Positions 428 through 34,872 of a stretch of 34,872 nucleotides of DNA are shown one piece after another. The notes under the pieces were generated by a model. It was not told the DNA's origin. It saw only the letters and a program-made list of their open reading frames with translations, and did not search any database. Source of the stretch: a virus. Each line of letters opens with the position of its first letter. Position 1 is the stretch's first letter. Location of the stretch: positions 1-34,872 of the IMG/VR virus record IMGVR_UViG_3300008121_000009, one strand, 5' to 3'. The position numbers and the translations under genes are program-made.

Positions 428-742
428 CTATTGGCAGCGCTTGGGGCTTTGAATGCAAATCTCTAGGCGCTTGGTTACATCGTCGTAATGATCTTTTAGC
501 TTTTGGTAGTCTTCTGGCGAGGTGGAAATGTAGCCAAAGCAGTCGGTGTCATACTCGGCGCGACCATCAAAACAGGAGCAAGTAGACTCTTCAAGCACCA
601 CGCACTGTGGGATCTGTGGGGGCTTGATCCTTGTGCTGTTGCATGAGGTGATTGTCGACAAGCCAAAGAGTGCGATTATAAGCCCGAAGCTTGATAGAAT
701 CACGTTGCGCTCTTGCGAGAGAAATGGCTTTGATAATTTCAT
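428..742 (-). CDS. Spanin-like outer-membrane lipoprotein
   Basis: The 104-residue product has a basic N-terminus, a hydrophobic stretch (LSSFGLIIALFGLSTITSC, about residues 15-33) and a lipobox-type ITSC followed by Asn. The mature part is short, Pro- and Cys-containing (IKPPQIPQ, STCSCFDG) with a helical tail. AAGGAAGCCAGGG precedes the chosen ATG at 740-742, which fits better than the longer frame. The gene sits at the end of the lysis region, downstream of the endolysin, and its 5' half overlaps the 591-881 gene in another frame. This recalls Rz/Rz1 spanin pairs. A role in outer-membrane disruption at lysis is inferred from layout and lipobox. The Cys content is higher than in typical Rz1. 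Confidence 0.6.
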   Translation of the reverse strand: MKLSKPFLSQERNVILSSFGLIIALFGLSTITSCNSTRIKPPQIPQCVVLEESTCSCFDGRAEYDTDCFGYISTSPEDYQKLKDHYDDVTKRLEICIQSPKRCQ

Positions 743-881
743 CCCTGGCTTCCTTTGTTTCCTTGTGCTCTGATTGAATCTTTTGAACTTTAGAAGAAAT
801 AAAGGCCGCAACAAATTGCTCTGCTAGCTTTGCAGTAGTTTCCCACGCGTTAATAGCGGCAACAATTGCGGCCCAATTCAT
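591..881 (-). CDS. Coiled-coil lysis-region protein, possible spanin partner
   Basis: The 96-residue protein is mostly helical, with an Ala-rich N-terminus (MNWAAIVAAINAW) followed by a charged heptad-like stretch (SSKVQKIQSEHKETKEARDEI, about residues 29-49). Its ATG shares one base with the upstream stop (TAATG at 879-883). The last half overlaps the lipoprotein gene out of frame, as Rz overlaps Rz1. However, the N-terminus carries Glu and Lys and is not a convincing membrane anchor, so calling it an inner-membrane spanin is only a hypothesis. Confidence 0.6.
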   Translation of the reverse strand: MNWAAIVAAINAWETTAKLAEQFVAAFISSKVQKIQSEHKETKEARDEIIKAISLARAQRDSIKLRAYNRTLWLVDNHLMQQHKDQAPTDPTVRGA

Positions 882-1144
882 TATGCTTTCTCAATAAGCT
901 TAACTTTCTCGTCCACTTTCTTGATCAGTGAAACAACTTCAGCGACGTCCAAGTCCTTCGCTTCATCGAATGCCTGGCCAAGCTCAGAGAATGCAGAAAC
1001 AATCTCGGGGATTTTTACAAGAACTTCCATTGCTGCAGGAATGTCTTGGAGATCCACCTTTTTATCATTGCTGATTTTCTTGGCTGCCACTGCAACGTGA
1101 GCCAATGCGTCTACTAGTTGCTCAATTTTTTCTGTCCCGATCAT
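881..1144 (-). CDS. Small helical protein of the lysis cassette
   Basis: This 87-residue, acidic, strongly helical protein is rich in Val, Ala, Lys, Glu and Asp (KIEQLVDALAHVAVAAKKI; VVSLIKKVDEKVKLIEKA). No membrane span, signal peptide or metal motif is visible. It sits two bases after the endolysin stop, so it probably belongs to the lysis or terminal virion group. Similar short helical proteins of unknown function are common next to phage endolysins. Confidence 0.7.
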   Translation of the reverse strand: MIGTEKIEQLVDALAHVAVAAKKISNDKKVDLQDIPAAMEVLVKIPEIVSAFSELGQAFDEAKDLDVAEVVSLIKKVDEKVKLIEKA

Positions 1145-1146
1145 GA

Positions 1147-1539
1147 TTACTCCTTTGTGTCCACACTATACTCGCGCCCCAATTGAAGATGGAGGTGTGG
1201 TTGTGGTTGTTTTGATTTGTTAACAATAAAACGGCGCTTGCCATCAGACGCGCTAACTGCGCCATAGTCTCCGAACTTGCCCTGGAATTCCTCAATGAAA
1301 GTCTTTAGAAAAGATTCTGGCCAGTCACGAGTGCGAACGTCTGCCGCTCTTCCTTCACGATGTGAGGCTGATTTTCTGCCTAGTTTTTGATCTTCTTCGA
1401 GAGTTGAAAGCGTTGCGGTCACAACAAAGTCATGTCCTCTTGCTTTGCAGAAGTAGCCCATCTCAATCAAGATAGAAAAAAGAACCTTAGATATTCCCGG
1501 GGCCCTTTCTTCAACTTGTTTGGTTTTGTATTTGATCAT
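1147..1539 (-). CDS. Endolysin, M15-type peptidoglycan peptidase
   Basis: The 130-residue protein carries the M15/LAS metallopeptidase signature. His60 and Asp67 lie in SHREGRAAD (HxxGxAxD), and the HxH is PHLHLQLG with His115 and His117. Family members cut stem or cross-bridge peptides of the cell wall with zinc. There is no signal peptide, so a holin or similar would be needed for release. The ATG overlaps the stop of the upstream gene (ATGA at 1536-1539). It lies near the end of the late series as expected for lysis. It is about the size of a stand-alone M15 domain. Confidence 0.85.
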   Translation of the reverse strand: MIKYKTKQVEERAPGISKVLFSILIEMGYFCKARGHDFVVTATLSTLEEDQKLGRKSASHREGRAADVRTRDWPESFLKTFIEEFQGKFGDYGAVSASDGKRRFIVNKSKQPQPHLHLQLGREYSVDTKE

Positions 1540-4840: not shown

Positions 4841-5082
4841 TATTTCCTCATCAAATGATTTTTAATGTCTCTCACATCGGTCTTTATGTCATCTAGGCGC
4901 TGGTTTATGTTATCCATGTCGTTTTCGCGCATCTTTTCTACTTGAGCTATTACCTTTAACTCTACAGCTTCTAGTTCATTCTGATGCCACTTTACCCCTG
5001 TATAAGTAAAGGATGCTATGGCAACACAGATAGCAATAAACTTAGAGGCGAAGAATTGGAATAGCTCAAGTAGTTTGGTCAC
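4840..5082 (-). CDS. Membrane protein with coiled coil, candidate holin or spanin
   Basis: The 80-residue product has one N-terminal membrane span (FFASKFIAICVAIASFTYTGV, about residues 10-30) followed by a charged coiled coil (NINQRLDDIKTDVRDIKNHL). The start is GTG at 5080-5082, overlapping the TGA of the fibre gene, with GGAG seven bases before. Topology (short N-terminal span, long cytosolic or periplasmic helix) suits a small holin-like protein or an inner-membrane spanin. It is separated from the endolysin by three structural genes. Confidence 0.7.
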   Translation of the reverse strand: MTKLLELFQFFASKFIAICVAIASFTYTGVKWHQNELEAVELKVIAQVEKMRENDMDNINQRLDDIKTDVRDIKNHLMRK

Positions 5083-7505
5083 TGACGCACTCCATGGCAG
5101 CTTATATTAAAGTTTTGCTGACTGTTTGCTCCGCTTGAGTTTGACGTATAAACAGAAGCGGTTGTGTTGGAGCTAGCCCAGATCGTCGCCTCCCCAGAAG
5201 CTCCGTTATTAAATTGATTAGCCACACAGTTTGGGCTTGAGCCAGCCCCCCAATAGTTTGTCGTGTATGTACAAACTCTCGGGTTGGCATTAGTACAAGA
5301 TGCAAAGCACCCACCAATCTGATCTGATATAACGCCAGTTGATGAAATTTTAGCAGAGCACAGTCCGGGCTTACCTGCTCCGGGACTCACCACGCTATCA
5401 ATAAACGTACCAGCCACAGCAGTCTTAGGTCTAAAGTCTACGCCTTGCTTTTGGCAGATGATAGCCTTGGGAAGTGACGTTGTGTTTATACCTCCCGTAT
5501 CCGTAAACAATTGGAAAGAAACAGAGGAGGCGCTTGATGTATGCACAACCGAAAATGACTGAGATCCACCAGCATTATCCGCCGTAACCACACAAGCCGG
5601 AGCATTGGTAAATACGCCAGCATTAAATGTGCACACCATAGGGTTTGCGTTTGTGCAGCTACCATTTATAAAGTCTATGTTTTCTGTTGTAACTGCGCCG
5701 GTAATTCCAATCTTCGCACTAAAAGTATCAGTACACTCATAAGGATCAGCACACTTTTCAATTCCTTCAAAGCTGCCTGTGATCATGTTGCGCTCTTTGT
5801 AGTCTGCGCCTTGTTTAACGCAAGTTACATTAAACCCAATGCTTGTTGTCGCTCCGCTTGTTGTTAGGATTGATCTGTATGTAAAGGCGGAGGATGATGG
5901 CGACCCCGCAGAGAAGTAGCCACCCCCATCTGTCACGTTTGTTATCGTGCAGTTTGGAGCTACTGTAAAAATGGAAGAATTAAAAGTGCAGGTATACGGG
6001 GATGAGCCTGTGCAGTTTCCACTTATCCAATCTAAATTCTCATCACTCACCACACCCGCAGCACTCACCTTAGCACTAAACACATTCTCACAATCACTAG
6101 GCTTTCTACATTGTTGAGAGTAGAGAGATACACGAGAGTTGAGGCCTGCGCCACGGAATTTAAGAGTAAAGTCATATGCAAGATTGTTGCTTGCAAGTGG
6201 ATATGACCCCGAAGATGCTAGGCGAAGATCGGTAAGATTATTTAAAACATAAACCTGAAAAGTAGAAGCGCTTGTTGCAACGACTTTTCCCAGACCGAGG
6301 GAGCTTGCCACTAGATCGGTTGATGTGTTTGCGTAACCAACAACAGCGCTATTTAGTGTTTGATCTGCTGCCTGGGCAGCCGTCAGTACGCCCGTGAATG
6401 CTTGATTTGAATACAGCGGGACAGAAGAGTCAAACGTAATTCCTGCTGGGAGAGAAAAAATATACCCACCAGAACCATTTGCACCCCCGGCACCGGATGC
6501 CTGAGCTAGTTTATATTGGCATTCATAGTCAGAGCCAGAGACTCGACACCGGACGCTGTCTTGTTGGCGAGTTGTCGCCTTGGTCGGGTTTGTTGTGGTT
6601 GCGGTAATAGTAATTGGACCATAATTAAACCACGGACCCACTGCCCCTGTCTCTGTGATCATGCCAGGCTTGATAAGGCCGACGTAAGCTTTGTCAGCAA
6701 TCAGTGTCCCTGTAGAGCTTGGCGTGTCAATCTCAATGCCTGATGAGGCTGTCCCTAGGACGAATGGGATCTCGTATGCAGTCCACCTATCATCGGTTGC
6801 AAGATTTACGCATAGGTTATTTTGGCGGGCGCCATTTACTCTTGGACAAACTCTTGAGCCGGCAGTTGTGTTTCTTATCCATGCAAAGGCAAGGCCCTGC
6901 AATCCACCAACTTGAGAAGCATAGAGTGTCGTGTCTTGGAATACGTTATTTGTTTGAGATGCAGTAACAACTCTATAGGCTTTTAATCCTGAAAGCTCTG
7001 CGGTTGTCTCAACTGATCTTGTGCCTGTGCCCGAGCTAGTCCAGCCTGTCGTGTAGGTTTCATGCTCAAACTCTCCATTAAGGAGTAGGTTTCCATTGTC
7101 GGTGTCCACAAAGACTTCATTGGGGTTTGACCTGACTGCTTGCTGATTGGGAAATCTTTGGCTTGTAAACTCAGCCGTTGATTGCTGTTGCCCGCCAATT
7201 GCCACGCTTGAAACATTAGTTTCTTGCCCAGATGAGTCGAGCTTATAGAGGTTATTGTCCGACTTAAAGTAAAGTCGATTGAATCCGCTTGATGGGTTGC
7301 TCGGTGTAGCTTGTTGCTGTTGGGTTACGGGTCCAGGAGTCTGAAGACCTGAAGAGAAATTAAACCCTGTTCCGGTAGCGTCAAGTGTTGCGCCATTGCC
7401 AAGCAGAAAACCATTCTGGAAGGTTTGGAGTCTGTTCCCATTGGGCCATATCGATGCCGCTTGGGCGGTTATTGTTAATGCAATAAATAGTGCAACGAAA
7501 CGCAT
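5079..7505 (-). CDS. Large fibre-like protein with signal peptide and Cys-rich repeats
   Basis: The 808-residue protein begins with a classical Sec-like signal (MRFVALFIALTITAQA, then Ala-Ser), which is unusual for a virion protein. It then has a Gln/Ser/Gly-rich linker, a beta-rich region with possible carbohydrate-binding sandwich folds (about residues 140-290), and three related repeats near the C-terminus starting around residues 465, 584 and 712. Repeats one and two share a Cys-x5-Cys, the pattern FSAK(V/I), NCT or SCT, then CTFN and later Cys residues. The third is shorter at its start. Paired cysteines suggest disulfides formed outside the cytoplasm. Position in the tail cluster suggests a side fibre or a secreted adhesin-like product. 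Confidence 0.75.
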   Translation of the reverse strand: MRFVALFIALTITAQAASIWPNGNRLQTFQNGFLLGNGATLDATGTGFNFSSGLQTPGPVTQQQQATPSNPSSGFNRLYFKSDNNLYKLDSSGQETNVSSVAIGGQQQSTAEFTSQRFPNQQAVRSNPNEVFVDTDNGNLLLNGEFEHETYTTGWTSSGTGTRSVETTAELSGLKAYRVVTASQTNNVFQDTTLYASQVGGLQGLAFAWIRNTTAGSRVCPRVNGARQNNLCVNLATDDRWTAYEIPFVLGTASSGIEIDTPSSTGTLIADKAYVGLIKPGMITETGAVGPWFNYGPITITATTTNPTKATTRQQDSVRCRVSGSDYECQYKLAQASGAGGANGSGGYIFSLPAGITFDSSVPLYSNQAFTGVLTAAQAADQTLNSAVVGYANTSTDLVASSLGLGKVVATSASTFQVYVLNNLTDLRLASSGSYPLASNNLAYDFTLKFRGAGLNSRVSLYSQQCRKPSDCENVFSAKVSAAGVVSDENLDWISGNCTGSSPYTCTFNSSIFTVAPNCTITNVTDGGGYFSAGSPSSSAFTYRSILTTSGATTSIGFNVTCVKQGADYKERNMITGSFEGIEKCADPYECTDTFSAKIGITGAVTTENIDFINGSCTNANPMVCTFNAGVFTNAPACVVTADNAGGSQSFSVVHTSSASSVSFQLFTDTGGINTTSLPKAIICQKQGVDFRPKTAVAGTFIDSVVSPGAGKPGLCSAKISSTGVISDQIGGCFASCTNANPRVCTYTTNYWGAGSSPNCVANQFNNGASGEATIWASSNTTASVYTSNSSGANSQQNFNISCHGVRQ

Positions 7506-22266: not shown

Positions 22267-22368
22267 TTATGGCCTTTGGATGAAAGTCAACTTGCTTTAA
22301 TTGTGTGGGAAAAGATTTAAAGTGTCTATCTCTTGATGTTCTGCGTTTATTGTGCGAAAAGTCGCAAT

Positions 22369-22887
22369 ATGGAAAAATACCCAACACCTGGATACGAAGG
22401 GCTTTACGAAATTACTCTTTGTGGAAGGGTGTTTTCCTGCACAAGGATGGTTGGTCACAATAAGGGTGGACTCAAGAGGCTCGAGGGCAAAGAGCTTAGG
22501 GTTGGCAAAACCAAGGCTGGCTATCCCTGCATAAACCTGCACAGGGAAAATAAGACTGGGCTAGTTTATTTGCACAGAGTATTGGCGCAGCTATTCATAC
22601 CCAACCCAGAAGGCAAGCCCACAGTTAATCATATTAATGGGGACAAGTCTGATTTTAGATTGGAAAACTTGGAGTGGAGCACTTATTCAGAACAAAACTC
22701 ACACGCCTACAGGACTGGCCTGAAAAAAGCCAAAAGCATTTTAACTGAGTCACAGGCTATCGAAGCTTTGAAGCTATGCCGTTTAGGCGTATCTCAAGAT
22801 AAGGTTGCAAAAATAATGGGTGTCACAAGGTCTTGCATTCAGGGTGTTGCCAACAGAAAGACCTGGAAACACCTATCTCCTACTTGA
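22369..22887 (+). CDS. NUMOD4/HNH homing-type endonuclease
   Basis: The 172-residue product starts with a NUMOD4-like DNA-binding motif (EKYPTPGYEGLYEITLCGRV). An HNH core follows (LHRVLAQLF with His69, VNHINGDKSD with Asn87/His88, LENLEWST with Asn100), and a C-terminal HTH (VSQDKVAKIMGVTRSCIQGV, about residues 141-160). It is the only plus-strand gene in the packaging/structural region, wedged between portal and large terminase genes, and its 3' end overlaps the terminase stop by 15 bases. Upstream in-frame ATGs exist at 22333 and 22336. The chosen start is where the motif begins. It is a probable selfish insertion. The cut site is unknown. Confidence 0.85.
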   Translation: MEKYPTPGYEGLYEITLCGRVFSCTRMVGHNKGGLKRLEGKELRVGKTKAGYPCINLHRENKTGLVYLHRVLAQLFIPNPEGKPTVNHINGDKSDFRLENLEWSTYSEQNSHAYRTGLKKAKSILTESQAIEALKLCRLGVSQDKVAKIMGVTRSCIQGVANRKTWKHLSPT

Positions 22888-30539: not shown

Positions 30540-30989
30540 ATGATACAAACTAGCGCATATGTATCAACTAAACGCAAATTAGCACAACCAAATGGATTAA
30601 AAATGATTAGAAGCTTTTCAAGTGTGCCCGCATTTCAAACGGCTTTGCGTGAAACCCAGATGGGCGGCAAGGTAGCATCCTATTATTGGCGCAGACGGGG
30701 CCCTCGGCTTATTAATGTTTACTTTCAAGGGCGACAGATAGCGGAAACAGATTCAACTATCTCTGCCATGCTTCTAGCTAGGGATCACGCCAAGAGAGTT
30801 GGGTTATGGTTTGAGGCTGAGGTTCCCGAGCACTACTTTAGATTTGATTCTAACAAGAAAGAATGGGTGCTTTATGTCGGGGGCAGGTTTAATAAAAAGG
30901 GCAAGGTCAAGGCTGAGCTTGAAGAATATTTGCGCGTGGTTGCCTGGATGAAGTCGGGCGAGCACGGCAGTCAATGGAGTTCAAAATGA
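30540..30989 (+). CDS. Hypothetical basic protein
   Basis: The 149-residue protein is rich in aromatics and Arg (GGKVASYYWRRRGPRLINVY; VPEHYFRFDSNKKEWVLYVG). An alternative ATG 21 codons downstream (30603) would start at MIRSFSSVPAF. Neither has a clear ribosome binding site. It could be a nucleic-acid-binding protein judging by charge, but no fold is recognised. Its stop overlaps the methyltransferase start. Confidence 0.6.
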   Translation: MIQTSAYVSTKRKLAQPNGLKMIRSFSSVPAFQTALRETQMGGKVASYYWRRRGPRLINVYFQGRQIAETDSTISAMLLARDHAKRVGLWFEAEVPEHYFRFDSNKKEWVLYVGGRFNKKGKVKAELEEYLRVVAWMKSGEHGSQWSSK

Positions 30990-31597
30990 ACATATTAATA
31001 GCGTGTGAATTTAGCGGAACTGTTCGAGATGCGTTTATCGAAAAAGGGCACAATGCTGTATCCTGCGACCTTCTGCCATCTGACTCAAATTTTGGTGACC
31101 ACTACCAAGGTAGCGTGTTTGACATAATAAACGAGGGGTGGGACATGATGATAGCTCACCCACCATGCACATACTTAACCAACGCTGGGGTCACGTGGCT
31201 TTACAATAAAGATAAAACAAAAAACGAATTGCGCTGGGAAGAGATGGGGCAGGGTGCTGAATTTTTTAAGCGGCTACTTAATGCTAAAATCCCTAGGATA
31301 TGCGTCGAAAATCCAATTATGCACAAATATGCAAAGGATATAATAGGCGTAAACCAATCTCAGATTGTTCAGCCGTGGATGTTTGGTCACCCCGAGTCCA
31401 AGGCTACCTGTCTGTGGTTAAAAGGCCTCCCATTGCTCCAGGAAACGAACAACGTGAAAAAACAGTTTTTGGCTTTACCAAAAAGAGAGGCGCAAAGGCT
31501 GCACTATTTGCCGCCATCGGCAGATAGATGGAAAATACGAAGCAAGACTTACGACGGGGTGGCGGCAGCCATGGCTAGTCAGTGGGGCACAAAATGA
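30986..31597 (+). CDS. Compact DNA cytosine methyltransferase-like protein
   Basis: The 203-residue protein has C5-methyltransferase-type signatures: a cofactor motif near the start (MNILIACEFSGTVRDAF), the catalytic PPC at residues 59-61 within AHPPCTYLTNAG, ENP at 108-110 (motif VI-like), and a C-terminal segment (DGVAAAMASQWG) resembling motif X. It is much shorter than typical C5 enzymes of 300 or more residues and has little room for a target recognition domain. GGAG precedes the ATG at 30986. No restriction partner is adjacent, so protection of phage DNA from host nucleases is the simplest role. Confidence 0.7.
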   Translation: MNILIACEFSGTVRDAFIEKGHNAVSCDLLPSDSNFGDHYQGSVFDIINEGWDMMIAHPPCTYLTNAGVTWLYNKDKTKNELRWEEMGQGAEFFKRLLNAKIPRICVENPIMHKYAKDIIGVNQSQIVQPWMFGHPESKATCLWLKGLPLLQETNNVKKQFLALPKREAQRLHYLPPSADRWKIRSKTYDGVAAAMASQWGTK

Positions 31598-31722
31598 CGC
31601 ATCATAAGTTTATGTGCTTTGGATTTATGACTTGCGTTTTTATGCTGTGCTTGATCTCATTGGACTATGAAAAAACTATGCTTAATTTTATTAGTTATCT
31701 TGGCAGGTTGCTCACAGGTTGA
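31594..31722 (+). CDS. Small membrane protein overlapping lipoprotein start
   Basis: The 42-residue frame begins MTHHKFMCFGFMTCVFMLCL and has a hydrophobic span of about 18 residues. GGGG lies six bases before its ATG, and the ATG overlaps the previous stop. Its last 56 bases overlap the lipoprotein gene out of frame. It is likely translated, and may serve mainly to couple translation. Confidence 0.45.
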   Translation: MTHHKFMCFGFMTCVFMLCLISLDYEKTMLNFISYLGRLLTG

Positions 31723-32182
31723 GGTTGCCAAGACTCCCGAGATTGTCTTTTCCCAAGAGCGCGACATTACTTACACCAAGTCACAGCTTCAATTTATAAA
31801 AGAGGCGGTGGATTTCGCCAACCTGATTGTAAAAACTGACCAATTTAAGGCATCGGTTTTAAATAGCACATACGAGCAAACGACCGACACAGCTCAAGAA
31901 ATCTTTATTGTTATGACCAGTGGGGCAGTGTCCGAGGTAAAGCCTATTTATCCCAAAAATAGATTTACGGCCATGACTGCGACAACCTTTGCCAATGATC
32001 CAGCTATTTATCTAAATGCCCGCAGAGCCCGAACCAAGGCTTTATGGGTTGGATCTGTACTGCATGAGCGTTCCCACAAGGTTGGTTACCGGCACAATGG
32101 AAATAGCCGCGCAGGAAACGAGAAGACTGTGCCTTATCGCATGACCGAGATTGGAGAAAAGCTTGCATATTTATGCAAATGA
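31667..32182 (+). CDS. Lipoprotein with metzincin-type zinc motif
   Basis: The 171-residue protein starts with a lipoprotein signal (MKKLCLILLVILAGC, lipobox LAGC with Cys15). Residues 133-143 read HERSHKVGYRH, a perfect HExxHxxGxxH metzincin site (His133, Glu134, His137, His143). Met159 further along could be the Met-turn. The protein is therefore a predicted zinc protease tethered to the inner or outer membrane. It is in the early region, not with the lysis genes. A role in superinfection exclusion, periplasmic remodelling or host defence is inferred. The length is near the small end for metzincin domains. Confidence 0.75.
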   Translation: MKKLCLILLVILAGCSQVEVAKTPEIVFSQERDITYTKSQLQFIKEAVDFANLIVKTDQFKASVLNSTYEQTTDTAQEIFIVMTSGAVSEVKPIYPKNRFTAMTATTFANDPAIYLNARRARTKALWVGSVLHERSHKVGYRHNGNSRAGNEKTVPYRMTEIGEKLAYLCK

Positions 32183-32408
32183 GTGGTGTCTTTATTGCGA
32201 AGAGCCTATATCAGGCGAGCGCATAAAGATTTACAAGGGCCTAGATTGTGATCAGCCTTGGAATTTCTGGCCGCTTTGTGTAAACCATTCCCACCGTAAA
32301 AAATGGGTAGTGACAAAAAACTACCTTGAGGCTAATGGTTGGGAAAAAAGATGGAACAGAGGCTTTTGCCGGAGGGACGCTAATGACTGGATCTCGAAAG
32401 ACGTTTGA
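32163..32408 (+). CDS. Small zinc-binding-type protein
   Basis: The best start is TTG at 32163-32165, with GGAG six bases upstream, giving 81 residues. CLYC (Cys9/Cys12) and CVNH (Cys39/His42) are spaced like a small zinc ribbon. Aromatic residues (QPWNFWPL; NGWEKRWNRGF) follow. It overlaps the lipoprotein by 20 bases and the HNH gene by 26. Similar small zinc proteins accompany phage recombination genes. Confidence 0.6.
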   Translation: MHIYANEWCLYCEEPISGERIKIYKGLDCDQPWNFWPLCVNHSHRKKWVVTKNYLEANGWEKRWNRGFCRRDANDWISKDV

Positions 32409-33040: not shown

Positions 33041-33445
33041 TTAATAGGCTTGGCGACTTTCCGCAGGATGAATCGACCACGTCCGAACAAGATCAACCTC
33101 AAAAGACCAATTAACTGCGTATTCTTTGCGGGCTACAATCTCAGTTATGCAAGCATCGTTTATGCCCAATGGTTTACATATAGCGTCAATTAAAAGCTTA
33201 AGCGCTCCATCCAGGTCACCGGCGACCTTGTTGATTTTTCCTTTATTAGTGAGCCATGGGCCTCTATAGACAAGCGTAAACTTAAGCGCCTCGTCACAGT
33301 CTTTTAATTTAGCAAAATGATTAAATGAAACCGCTGAGATCTTAGCTTTATAATCCTTGCCCTCGTCAGTCATGAATCTCCGACCATTTCTGGCGGTTGA
33401 GTAAACGCTGTTCATGCTCATGGGCTTAAAATTAAAAATTAGCAC
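33041..33445 (-). CDS. rusA: RusA-family Holliday junction resolvase
   Basis: The 134-residue product (GTG start at 33443-33445 with GAGGG six bases before) has the RusA plan: FNFKPMSMNSVYSTARNGRR, a TxxGK-type middle, then AGDLDGALKLLIDAI and KPLGINDACITEIVARKEY. Asp77, Asp79 and Asp97 are likely metal ligands, with Lys107 in the usual basic segment. RusA cuts four-way junctions. With ERF and the exonuclease it completes a recombination set. It is antisense to the rest of this region. The frame could extend far upstream, but only this start has a ribosome binding site. Confidence 0.85.
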   Translation of the reverse strand: MLIFNFKPMSMNSVYSTARNGRRFMTDEGKDYKAKISAVSFNHFAKLKDCDEALKFTLVYRGPWLTNKGKINKVAGDLDGALKLLIDAICKPLGINDACITEIVARKEYAVNWSFEVDLVRTWSIHPAESRQAY

Positions 33446-33504
33446 GACGATCCCTCGCAAGTTTGAAACAATATACTCGTGGCTTCCTCGCCTCAAAGTG
33501 TGTG

Positions 33505-33542
33505 AGCCCGGTGTGCGACACGGACGTTTCCTCCGGGCTTTT
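33505..33542 (+). terminator. Hairpin with T-run between divergent genes
   Basis: AGCCCGG (33505-33511) pairs with CCGGGCT (33533-33539), followed by TTTT. The 21-base loop contains a second small stem (GTGT/ACAC). On the plus strand this fits an intrinsic terminator that would stop rightward transcripts before the HExxH gene, though that gene is then left needing its own promoter. The reverse strand lacks a T-run. Confidence 0.5.
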
Positions 33543-33560
33543 CTTACCAAGGATAGTAAA

Positions 33561-33866
33561 ATGATCCCTAAGAAATTAGACATTCTTGGCGACTCTGTCC
33601 AGATAAAGCAAGTGGACGATAAGACCATGGATGAATTTAATGGGCGGGCTGATGAGACACTTGGACTAGCCATGCTACTAGACGCCCTGATTGCTATTAG
33701 AAAAAGCTGTCCCGAGAAAAGCAAGCGCCCAATATTAGCACATGAGGTTTACCACTTTGCGCTCTATCAATCCGGGATCTCGCAAAGCATCCCACCAGAG
33801 ATTGAAGAGGCCCTATGTCAGATGTTTAGTAGGCTGTATTTTCAGCTTAAAAAGCAAGGTCTGTGA
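33561..33866 (+). CDS. HExxH metallopeptidase-like phage protein
   Basis: The 101-residue protein begins MIPKKLDILGDSVQIKQVDD, has a helical middle and the motif LAHEVYHFAL (His61, Glu62, His65), followed by acidic residues at PPEIEEAL (Glu80-Glu83). This resembles small phage proteins of the form IPKxFxLxG...HELxH...E. AAGGA precedes the ATG. It lies on the plus strand between RusA and the exonuclease on the other strand. Zinc binding is likely. Substrate unknown. Confidence 0.65.
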   Translation: MIPKKLDILGDSVQIKQVDDKTMDEFNGRADETLGLAMLLDALIAIRKSCPEKSKRPILAHEVYHFALYQSGISQSIPPEIEEALCQMFSRLYFQLKKQGL

Positions 33867-34111: not shown

Positions 34112-34872
34112 GATTGTAGCCACATTCAACGCATTGCCATGTTCTAAACACGCCCGCGTTTGTTGTTATTGGCCCTACCTCTCTAAATTCCTTGGACCCA
34201 CACGAGCAGATATTATCCTGATTAAAGATGTTAAAGCGGATTGATTTATCGTATCTGCGAAGCTTTAAATAAACCGCCTCAAGGGTTAAAACGTCCCGAC
34301 AGTTGTATATCTCTAGTTCAATAAATGCCTCAGGGTTTCCTTTGGCGCATTCTGAGAATAGCTTCATCCCTGGAAACTTGCCGTGATCCAGTTTGTTTAT
34401 AACGTCTAAATATTTTGCAAGGTAGTCCAACTTTGCACTAGTTAATTTGAAATTGCGCCTTGCTATCTTGAGTGTGCAAATCGAGCGCCTGTCTCGTTCC
34501 TTTTCAAGGCCATAAAAGAGCCATCTTGCCCTTAGCTTCTTGGTGTCGAAATCAGAATTGTGGGCGACGATTACCTCGGCTTTATTCATTAGATCAAAGG
34601 CTTTTTGGCAAACGTCCCTATCGTTTCTTGGGTCATTGGGGTCAACTTGATAATAAATAATGTCCTCGCTGTCTGCCCACTTTGCAGCAAAGGAAAGGAT
34701 TGACCAGTCGCTTATAATTTCAGTGTGCGCGATATACTGATCTCGGATGCCCCAGGATTGAACGACCATGGGACAAACCTCTATATCGATGAAAAGTATT
34801 TTAGGCGGGGCCGGGTCTATCTCGGCAAGAGCTTGATTGGGATGAAGGGGCAGCCCAGCTAATCTTAAAAGA
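34056..34872 (-). CDS. DnaQ-like 3'-5' exonuclease with C-terminal zinc ribbon (partial at contig end)
   Basis: With bases 1-180 the full protein has 318 residues. Three exonuclease motifs are present: FIDIE (Asp76/Glu78), AHNSDFD (Asp154/Asp156) and YNCRD (Asp240). The C-terminus has ICSC (Cys269/271) and WQCVECG (Cys294/297), a zinc ribbon. The core resembles the RNase H-like exonucleases often annotated in phages as PolB-type exonuclease domains. It could supply single strands for ERF or edit DNA. The window cuts the gene at its N-terminal linker. An internal ATG at 34769 lies after the first catalytic motif and cannot be the true start. Confidence 0.9.
   Translation of the reverse strand, partial: LLRLAGLPLHPNQALAEIDPAPPKILFIDIEVCPMVVQSWGIRDQYIAHTEIISDWSILSFAAKWADSEDIIYYQVDPNDPRNDRDVCQKAFDLMNKAEVIVAHNSDFDTKKLRARWLFYGLEKERDRRSICTLKIARRNFKLTSAKLDYLAKYLDVINKLDHGKFPGMKLFSECAKGNPEAFIELEIYNCRDVLTLEAVYLKLRRYDKSIRFNIFNQDNICSCGSKEFREVGPITTNAGVFRTWQCVECGYNLRDTKNLLSAQLRKSLMK
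34833..34872. repeat. Terminal direct repeat, right copy (circular contig overlap)
   Basis: Exact copy of bases 1-40. Removing it gives a unit of 34,832 bp. It lies inside the DnaQ-like exonuclease gene, not at a packaging site, which argues that the linear ends are arbitrary. Confidence 0.9.

Follow-up and report, generated by a model that had tools for sequence, protein, structure and literature searches.

The product of gene P0001 is very likely a lipid-anchored zincin, and we conclude that this small zinc peptidase, which belongs to an uncatalogued family, probably has its targets in the envelope of the host cell. The gene lies in a viral DNA of 34,872 nucleotides (IMG/VR record IMGVR_UViG_3300008121_000009; hereafter the window). 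A 40-base direct repeat at 1–40 and 34833–34872 indicates that the genome, circular or terminally redundant and about 34.8 kb long, is complete; an exonuclease gene spans the join. The reading frame at 31667–32182, described in an earlier note as a phage lipoprotein with a complete metzincin motif, is real and encodes 171 aa as stated there. The features of the gene and its neighbours are as follows:

31667–32182, plus strand: coding sequence of P0001, putative lipid-anchored HExxHxxGxxH zincin, 171 aa
31667–31711, plus strand: signal peptide and lipobox, residues 1–15 (predicted lipidation at Cys15; Ser at +2), read from the sequence; lipoboxes also occur in phage relatives
32063–32095, plus strand: zinc-binding/catalytic motif HERSHKVGYRH (predicted function), residues 133–143; the only match to the HExxHxxGxxH codon pattern on both strands of the window, with none in 100 dinucleotide shuffles
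32126–32137, plus strand: family motif [ST]V[PN]Y, TVPY in P0001 (residues 154–157), opening the C-terminal helix; S/T at 154 in 71/71
30974–31597, plus strand: DNA-methyltransferase-like gene, upstream neighbour (PHROG 757, 1.4e-59)
32151–32408, plus strand: small Cys/His-rich protein, downstream neighbour; a relative directly follows the zincin gene in the related phage locus L038
32383–32718, plus strand: HNH endonuclease-like gene; L038 has a 60% relative at the corresponding position
33041–33418, minus strand: RusA-like Holliday junction resolvase, convergent (PF05866, 2.3e-7)

The N-terminus reads MKKLCLILLVILAG followed by CSQ, with a clean LAGC. A basic n-region (KK) and a hydrophobic core are also present, as expected of a Sec/SPII substrate, so that the earlier description of a lipobox protein was upheld. 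The zinc motif is exact, and the catalytic Glu134 had been placed correctly in the sequence. By the E. coli sorting rule, the Ser at position +2 predicts that P0001 goes to the outer membrane. The mature part contains one Cys after the lipobox, Cys170, and therefore lacks the disulphide pattern of the exported relatives. A small hydrophobic ORF of 46 aa (31582–31722, plus strand), read in a different frame, overlaps the beginning of the zincin gene.

No Pfam, NCBIfam or PADLOC family covers P0001 and its relatives, and no PHROG gave a convincing match (a profile match above the cut-off over the domain). Matches to the Cor superinfection-exclusion and Rz-spanin PHROGs were rejected because they covered the signal peptide alone. 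When P0001 was used as a single protein query, no close relatives were revealed in the collections of viruses, phages and genomes searched. Relatives were collected with a degenerate DNA pattern for HExxHxxG[FY]xH...VPY, which matched 69 and 22 viral stretches; nearly all of these code for proteins of 140–240 aa that align over most of their length. The zinc motif together with an invariant [ST]V[PN]Y was found in about 80 distinct phage proteins and at least about 130 bacterial proteins. The homology extends past the search pattern, as follows from the S/T at position 154 in all 71 aligned members, which was not part of the viral search pattern, from N117 (kept in 58/71), and from a BLASTP match of P0001 to L015 that covers the domain (32% over 123 aa). 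Against the collected set, phmmer and blastp linked P0001 to L015, L065, L008 and L006 over the domain with E-values of about 1e-9 to 1e-15.

Residues H133, E134, H137, G140 and H143 are invariant in alignments A1 and A2 (52/52 in A2). Tyr157 is invariant as well, in part because Tyr was in the search pattern. Three members (L300, L301 and L302) were recovered independently of the zinc motif, by searching with L065 via other peptides; all three are lipoproteins with an intact HExxHxxGxxH and with SVNY or TVNY in place of VPY. Loss of the motif in close homologues had been named as a refutation, but it is kept in the nearest obtainable relatives, these three included, which are only about 25–33% identical. 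Judged by its sequence, P0001 belongs to a predator/phage [ST]V[PN]Y zincin family characterized by HExxHxxG[FY]xH, [ST]V[PN]Y and a common N-terminal half. In the tree P0001 is the sister of the phage lipoprotein L006 (support 0.935).

The AlphaFold2 models of P0001 obtained with two alignments (pLDDT 90.2 and 89.1) agree with each other and contain a helix at 38–54, three main strands, an active-site helix at 124–138 and a C-terminal helix at 155–170 beginning at VPY. The backing helix, active-site helix and twisted five-stranded sheet of metzincins were sought in the model; helix 38–54 and active-site helix 124–138 were found, but only the three main strands, and there was no significant fold match. 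Metzincins are defined by the zinc motif and the Met-turn, a conserved methionine below the zinc (PMC9848320). The methionine that could form the Met-turn considered earlier, Met159 within VPYRM, does exist, but this position is Met in only about 4/203 family members and Ile, Val or Leu in 165/203. Any Met within 22 residues of the third motif His was found in only 58/203. Since Met159 is unconserved and sits inside the predicted C-terminal helix, a Met-turn is not supported for P0001. Hence, of the membrane-tethered zinc protease with a complete metzincin motif that the earlier note had proposed, the tethered protease is well supported, with the motif in all homologues, a confident model and recurrent lipoboxes, while the complete-metzincin label does not, as there is no conserved Met-turn. 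P0001 is accordingly described here as a minimal zincin that resembles metzincins rather than as an established metzincin. Tyr157 may replace the astacin tyrosine in function and would probably stand in for the Met-turn elements.

Searches of PDB sequences with the family profile revealed 9tpb (1e-4), astacin (1.1e-4), and selecase and deuterolysin (about 1e-3); the 9tpb alignment spans the N-terminal helix, sheet and active-site helix. With the P0001 model, Foldseek gave weak zincin matches, with Wss1 and deuterolysin on top (prob 0.87–1.0; E 0.02 or worse). Membership in the Wss1 group was rejected, since its best Foldseek E-value of 0.02 is not significant and the match was gone with the second model.

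Comparison with known systems revealed both common and distinct traits. The HExxHxxGxxH motif with invariant Glu and Gly is common to the P0001 family and the metzincin clan (astacin, matrixin, adamalysin, fragilysin; PDB 9tpb, HomA 9tpy), but the family differs in having no conserved Met-turn, 11 residues from His143 to the last helix, and a best fold match at the E-value given above. Wss1/SprT-like proteins, selecase and deuterolysin are, like the P0001 model, small zincin folds, whereas their third-ligand arrangement differs. Listeria Mtz is a phage-derived secreted metzincin which, with its TIMP-like lipoprotein partner Tim, increases sensitivity to phage lysis (PMC8235301). Mtz and P0001 are both phage-linked HExxHxxGxxH peptidases that are exported, P0001 by prediction. 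However, Mtz has an AIMLD Met-turn, is soluble and acts with a separate lipoprotein, while P0001 is peptidase and lipoprotein in one, and no gene for a partner was seen. By profile (E 1e-20 to 1e-40), uncurated exported peptidases of Bacteriovoracaceae are members of the P0001 family; they share its motifs and are often lipoproteins. The phage clade is distinct from them: its proteins are shorter, show SVNY/VPY variants and often contain additional Cys.

Such a gene had been considered unexpected in a phage early operon. This was wrong, as many related phages carry it in the same region. Family-bearing phages often also have other genes of the window (ERF, exonuclease, HNH, RusA, an M15-like gene and fibre), and in the window's branch the zincin gene is usually the last early-operon gene, with convergent RusA or lysis genes close by. 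P0001 is the closing gene of the early/recombination operon; the lysis cassette of the window is located elsewhere (428–1539, minus strand). Locus L038 has the same order as the window (zincin, Cys/His protein, HNH, RusA), but its zincin has no signal peptide. RusA relatives were found near the zincin gene in L038, L087, L029 and L045, and in L065 the zincin gene is about 2.5 kb downstream of a 53% relative of the window's methyltransferase-like gene.

Several further genes of the window should be mentioned. A second HExxH protein (HEVYH) is encoded at 33414–33866 (plus strand, likely start near 33561), with a match to PHROG 1233 (2.7e-8) and a weak DA1-like match; its relatives adjoin an exonuclease gene in several sister phages. 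At 428–881 (minus strand) there is a spanin-like pair, whose lipoprotein frame overlaps the 591–881 gene in another frame; lipoproteins with a Cys pattern resembling the spanin-like one were found in L089, L300 and L308. An HNH gene at 22333–22887 (plus strand) runs opposite to the terminase gene and overlaps its end; a relative adjoins the terminase in L296.

Under the export rule applied in the analysis, a signal peptide or lipobox is present in 19/77 phage members from several separate clades, a slight undercount because L302 was misassigned as unexported through start choice, and 58/77 have no signal peptide. Lipoboxes were found in L006, L030, L057, L076, L089, L300, L301, L302 and L308. 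At least two Cys in the mature part occur in 18/19 exported members vs 22/58 non-exported ones; Cys richness is expected of periplasmic proteins.

Some relatives, unlike P0001, occupy a lysis-cassette position (L089, L002, L062 and L078). In particular, L089 (a lipoprotein) and L002 are each flanked by a small holin-like gene on one side and by lysis-region genes on the other, with a Phage_lysozyme gene (2.8e-12) downstream of L089, while L062 and L078 are immediate neighbours of a same-strand M15-like gene. The L006 gene and an M15_3 endolysin gene (4e-18) face each other 132 bases apart, and the L019 zincin is near lysis-type (holin-, endolysin- or spanin-like) genes; these names are partly sequence readings, with Pfam support only for two of them, the lysozyme at L089 and the M15_3 gene at L006. 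Within 3 kb, lysis genes were recognised for only 18/77 phage copies, a count limited by locus ends. Two tandem zincin copies are located among tail/baseplate genes in L043 (7872–9132), suggestive of a virion-associated form, and L069 and L083 are also in tail regions.

The search for bacterial homologues that the earlier note had advised did uncover the family, concentrated in predatory Bdellovibrionota. Among the bacterial pattern matches listed, 58/80 had titles naming Bacteriovoracaceae, Bacteriovorax, Halobacteriovorax, Bdellovibrionales or Oligoflexia. With the A1 profile (E <= 1e-10), matches were found in 24/192 Bdellovibrionota genomes vs 2/198 Bacteroidota and 1/199 Pseudomonadota genomes, one match in each of the latter two groups being the chosen centre genome. 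Several Bacteriovoracaceae genomes have 5–9 copies each, mostly lipoproteins or proteins with signal peptides. Over 14 kb, the phage contig L032 shows 99.9% identity to a Bacteriovoracaceae genome contig (prophage copy L154/L032), on which the phage genes continue into genes that we interpret as cellular, among them respiratory-complex and uvrA-like ones. Thus at least one family-bearing phage is integrated in a relative of the predators. L190, in a predator genome, groups with the phage clade with weak support; at 4969–6242 of this locus a predator-type lipoprotein copy and a secreted copy of phage type converge, which may reflect phage-to-host transfer. The predator proteins of L129 and L192 (about 375 aa) combine the family domain with an additional C-terminal part.

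As for the host of the window phage, a search via the 808-aa fibre-like protein gave no result. The nearest TerL match in the sampled genomes was a 65% fragment whose contig had been binned to Bdellovibrionota, as compared with at most 33% in 399 Pseudomonadota. This clue from sequence is suggestive only, because the contig may be misbinned.

Based on these data, we tentatively propose that P0001 is an outer-membrane-anchored peptidase that cuts envelope proteins of the host or prey, most likely weakening the envelope for lysis. After Sec export and lipidation at Cys15 the protein would be anchored in the outer membrane, facing the periplasm, where zinc would be held by His133, His137 and His143, and Glu134 would serve as the general base. 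Its substrates would be envelope proteins of the infected cell, and the weakened envelope would permit efficient virion release by endolysin and spanins; should the host prove to be a periplasmic predator, the wall of its prey could be another target. Proteolysis in the envelope is suggested by the predicted export and the invariant catalytic centre, and easing of lysis is favoured by the lysis neighbourhoods of relatives and the precedent of Mtz and Tim (PMC8235301). We keep the lysis role tentative because the P0001 copy is in an early region and most phage members seem cytoplasmic.

That cytoplasmic majority fits an ancestral intracellular role, in which the family would cut a cytoplasmic host or phage protein (in takeover, counter-defence or DNA-protein crosslinks) and P0001 would be an exported offshoot. 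The early-operon synteny with ERF, HNH and RusA is in line with it, as is the crosslink protease Wss1 as the best Foldseek match of the first model; yet P0001 and its nearest relatives are predicted to be exported, the Wss1 match is the one discarded above, and there is no PADLOC link, so we consider this role rather unlikely. Superinfection exclusion, which the earlier note had suggested and in which the anchored peptidase would clip receptors or entry factors that phages use on the infected cell, seems a little less likely still. Its predicted envelope location and early-operon position fit, and the P0001 N-terminus resembles a Cor-type lipoprotein signal, although only over residues 1–23 (E 0.016); however, most family members are not exported and some are in lysis or tail regions. 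Known exclusion lipoproteins are small binders that lack an enzyme motif, which counts against this role for P0001.

We regard as equally improbable that P0001 is a fitness gene for a putative predator host, an additional exported peptidase of a multi-copy host set that aids prey invasion or digestion during infection. The multiple, mostly exported copies in several Bacteriovoracaceae, the excess of profile matches in Bdellovibrionota over the two other phyla and the prophage copy argue for it. On the other hand, no integrase was recognised in the window, and the phage clade is largely apart from the main predator clade. A non-catalytic or virion-associated role, with the zincin fold as a structural or binding module, would agree with the copies in tail regions, including the tandem pair, but the catalytic Glu and three His are invariant across very divergent members, making it very improbable.

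Returning to the proposed envelope peptidase, it can be speculated, with considerable doubt, that phages of predatory Bdellovibrionota captured the multi-copy exported peptidases of the predators. Soluble and lipid-anchored forms would then provide a protease arm of lysis alongside holin, endolysin and spanin, breaking the predator envelope and perhaps the prey wall.

Zincins as such are already known, and exported phage-linked metzincins have precedent. In the libraries and literature searched we found neither this family nor its phage lipoprotein form nor its tie to predators. Our data define a sizeable zinc-peptidase family that is missing from current curated libraries, centred in predatory bacteria and also carried by phages. 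If the phage copies act on envelopes, a protease would be added to the known lysis tools of phages, and the family would offer a handle on the dismantling of cell walls by predators and their viruses.
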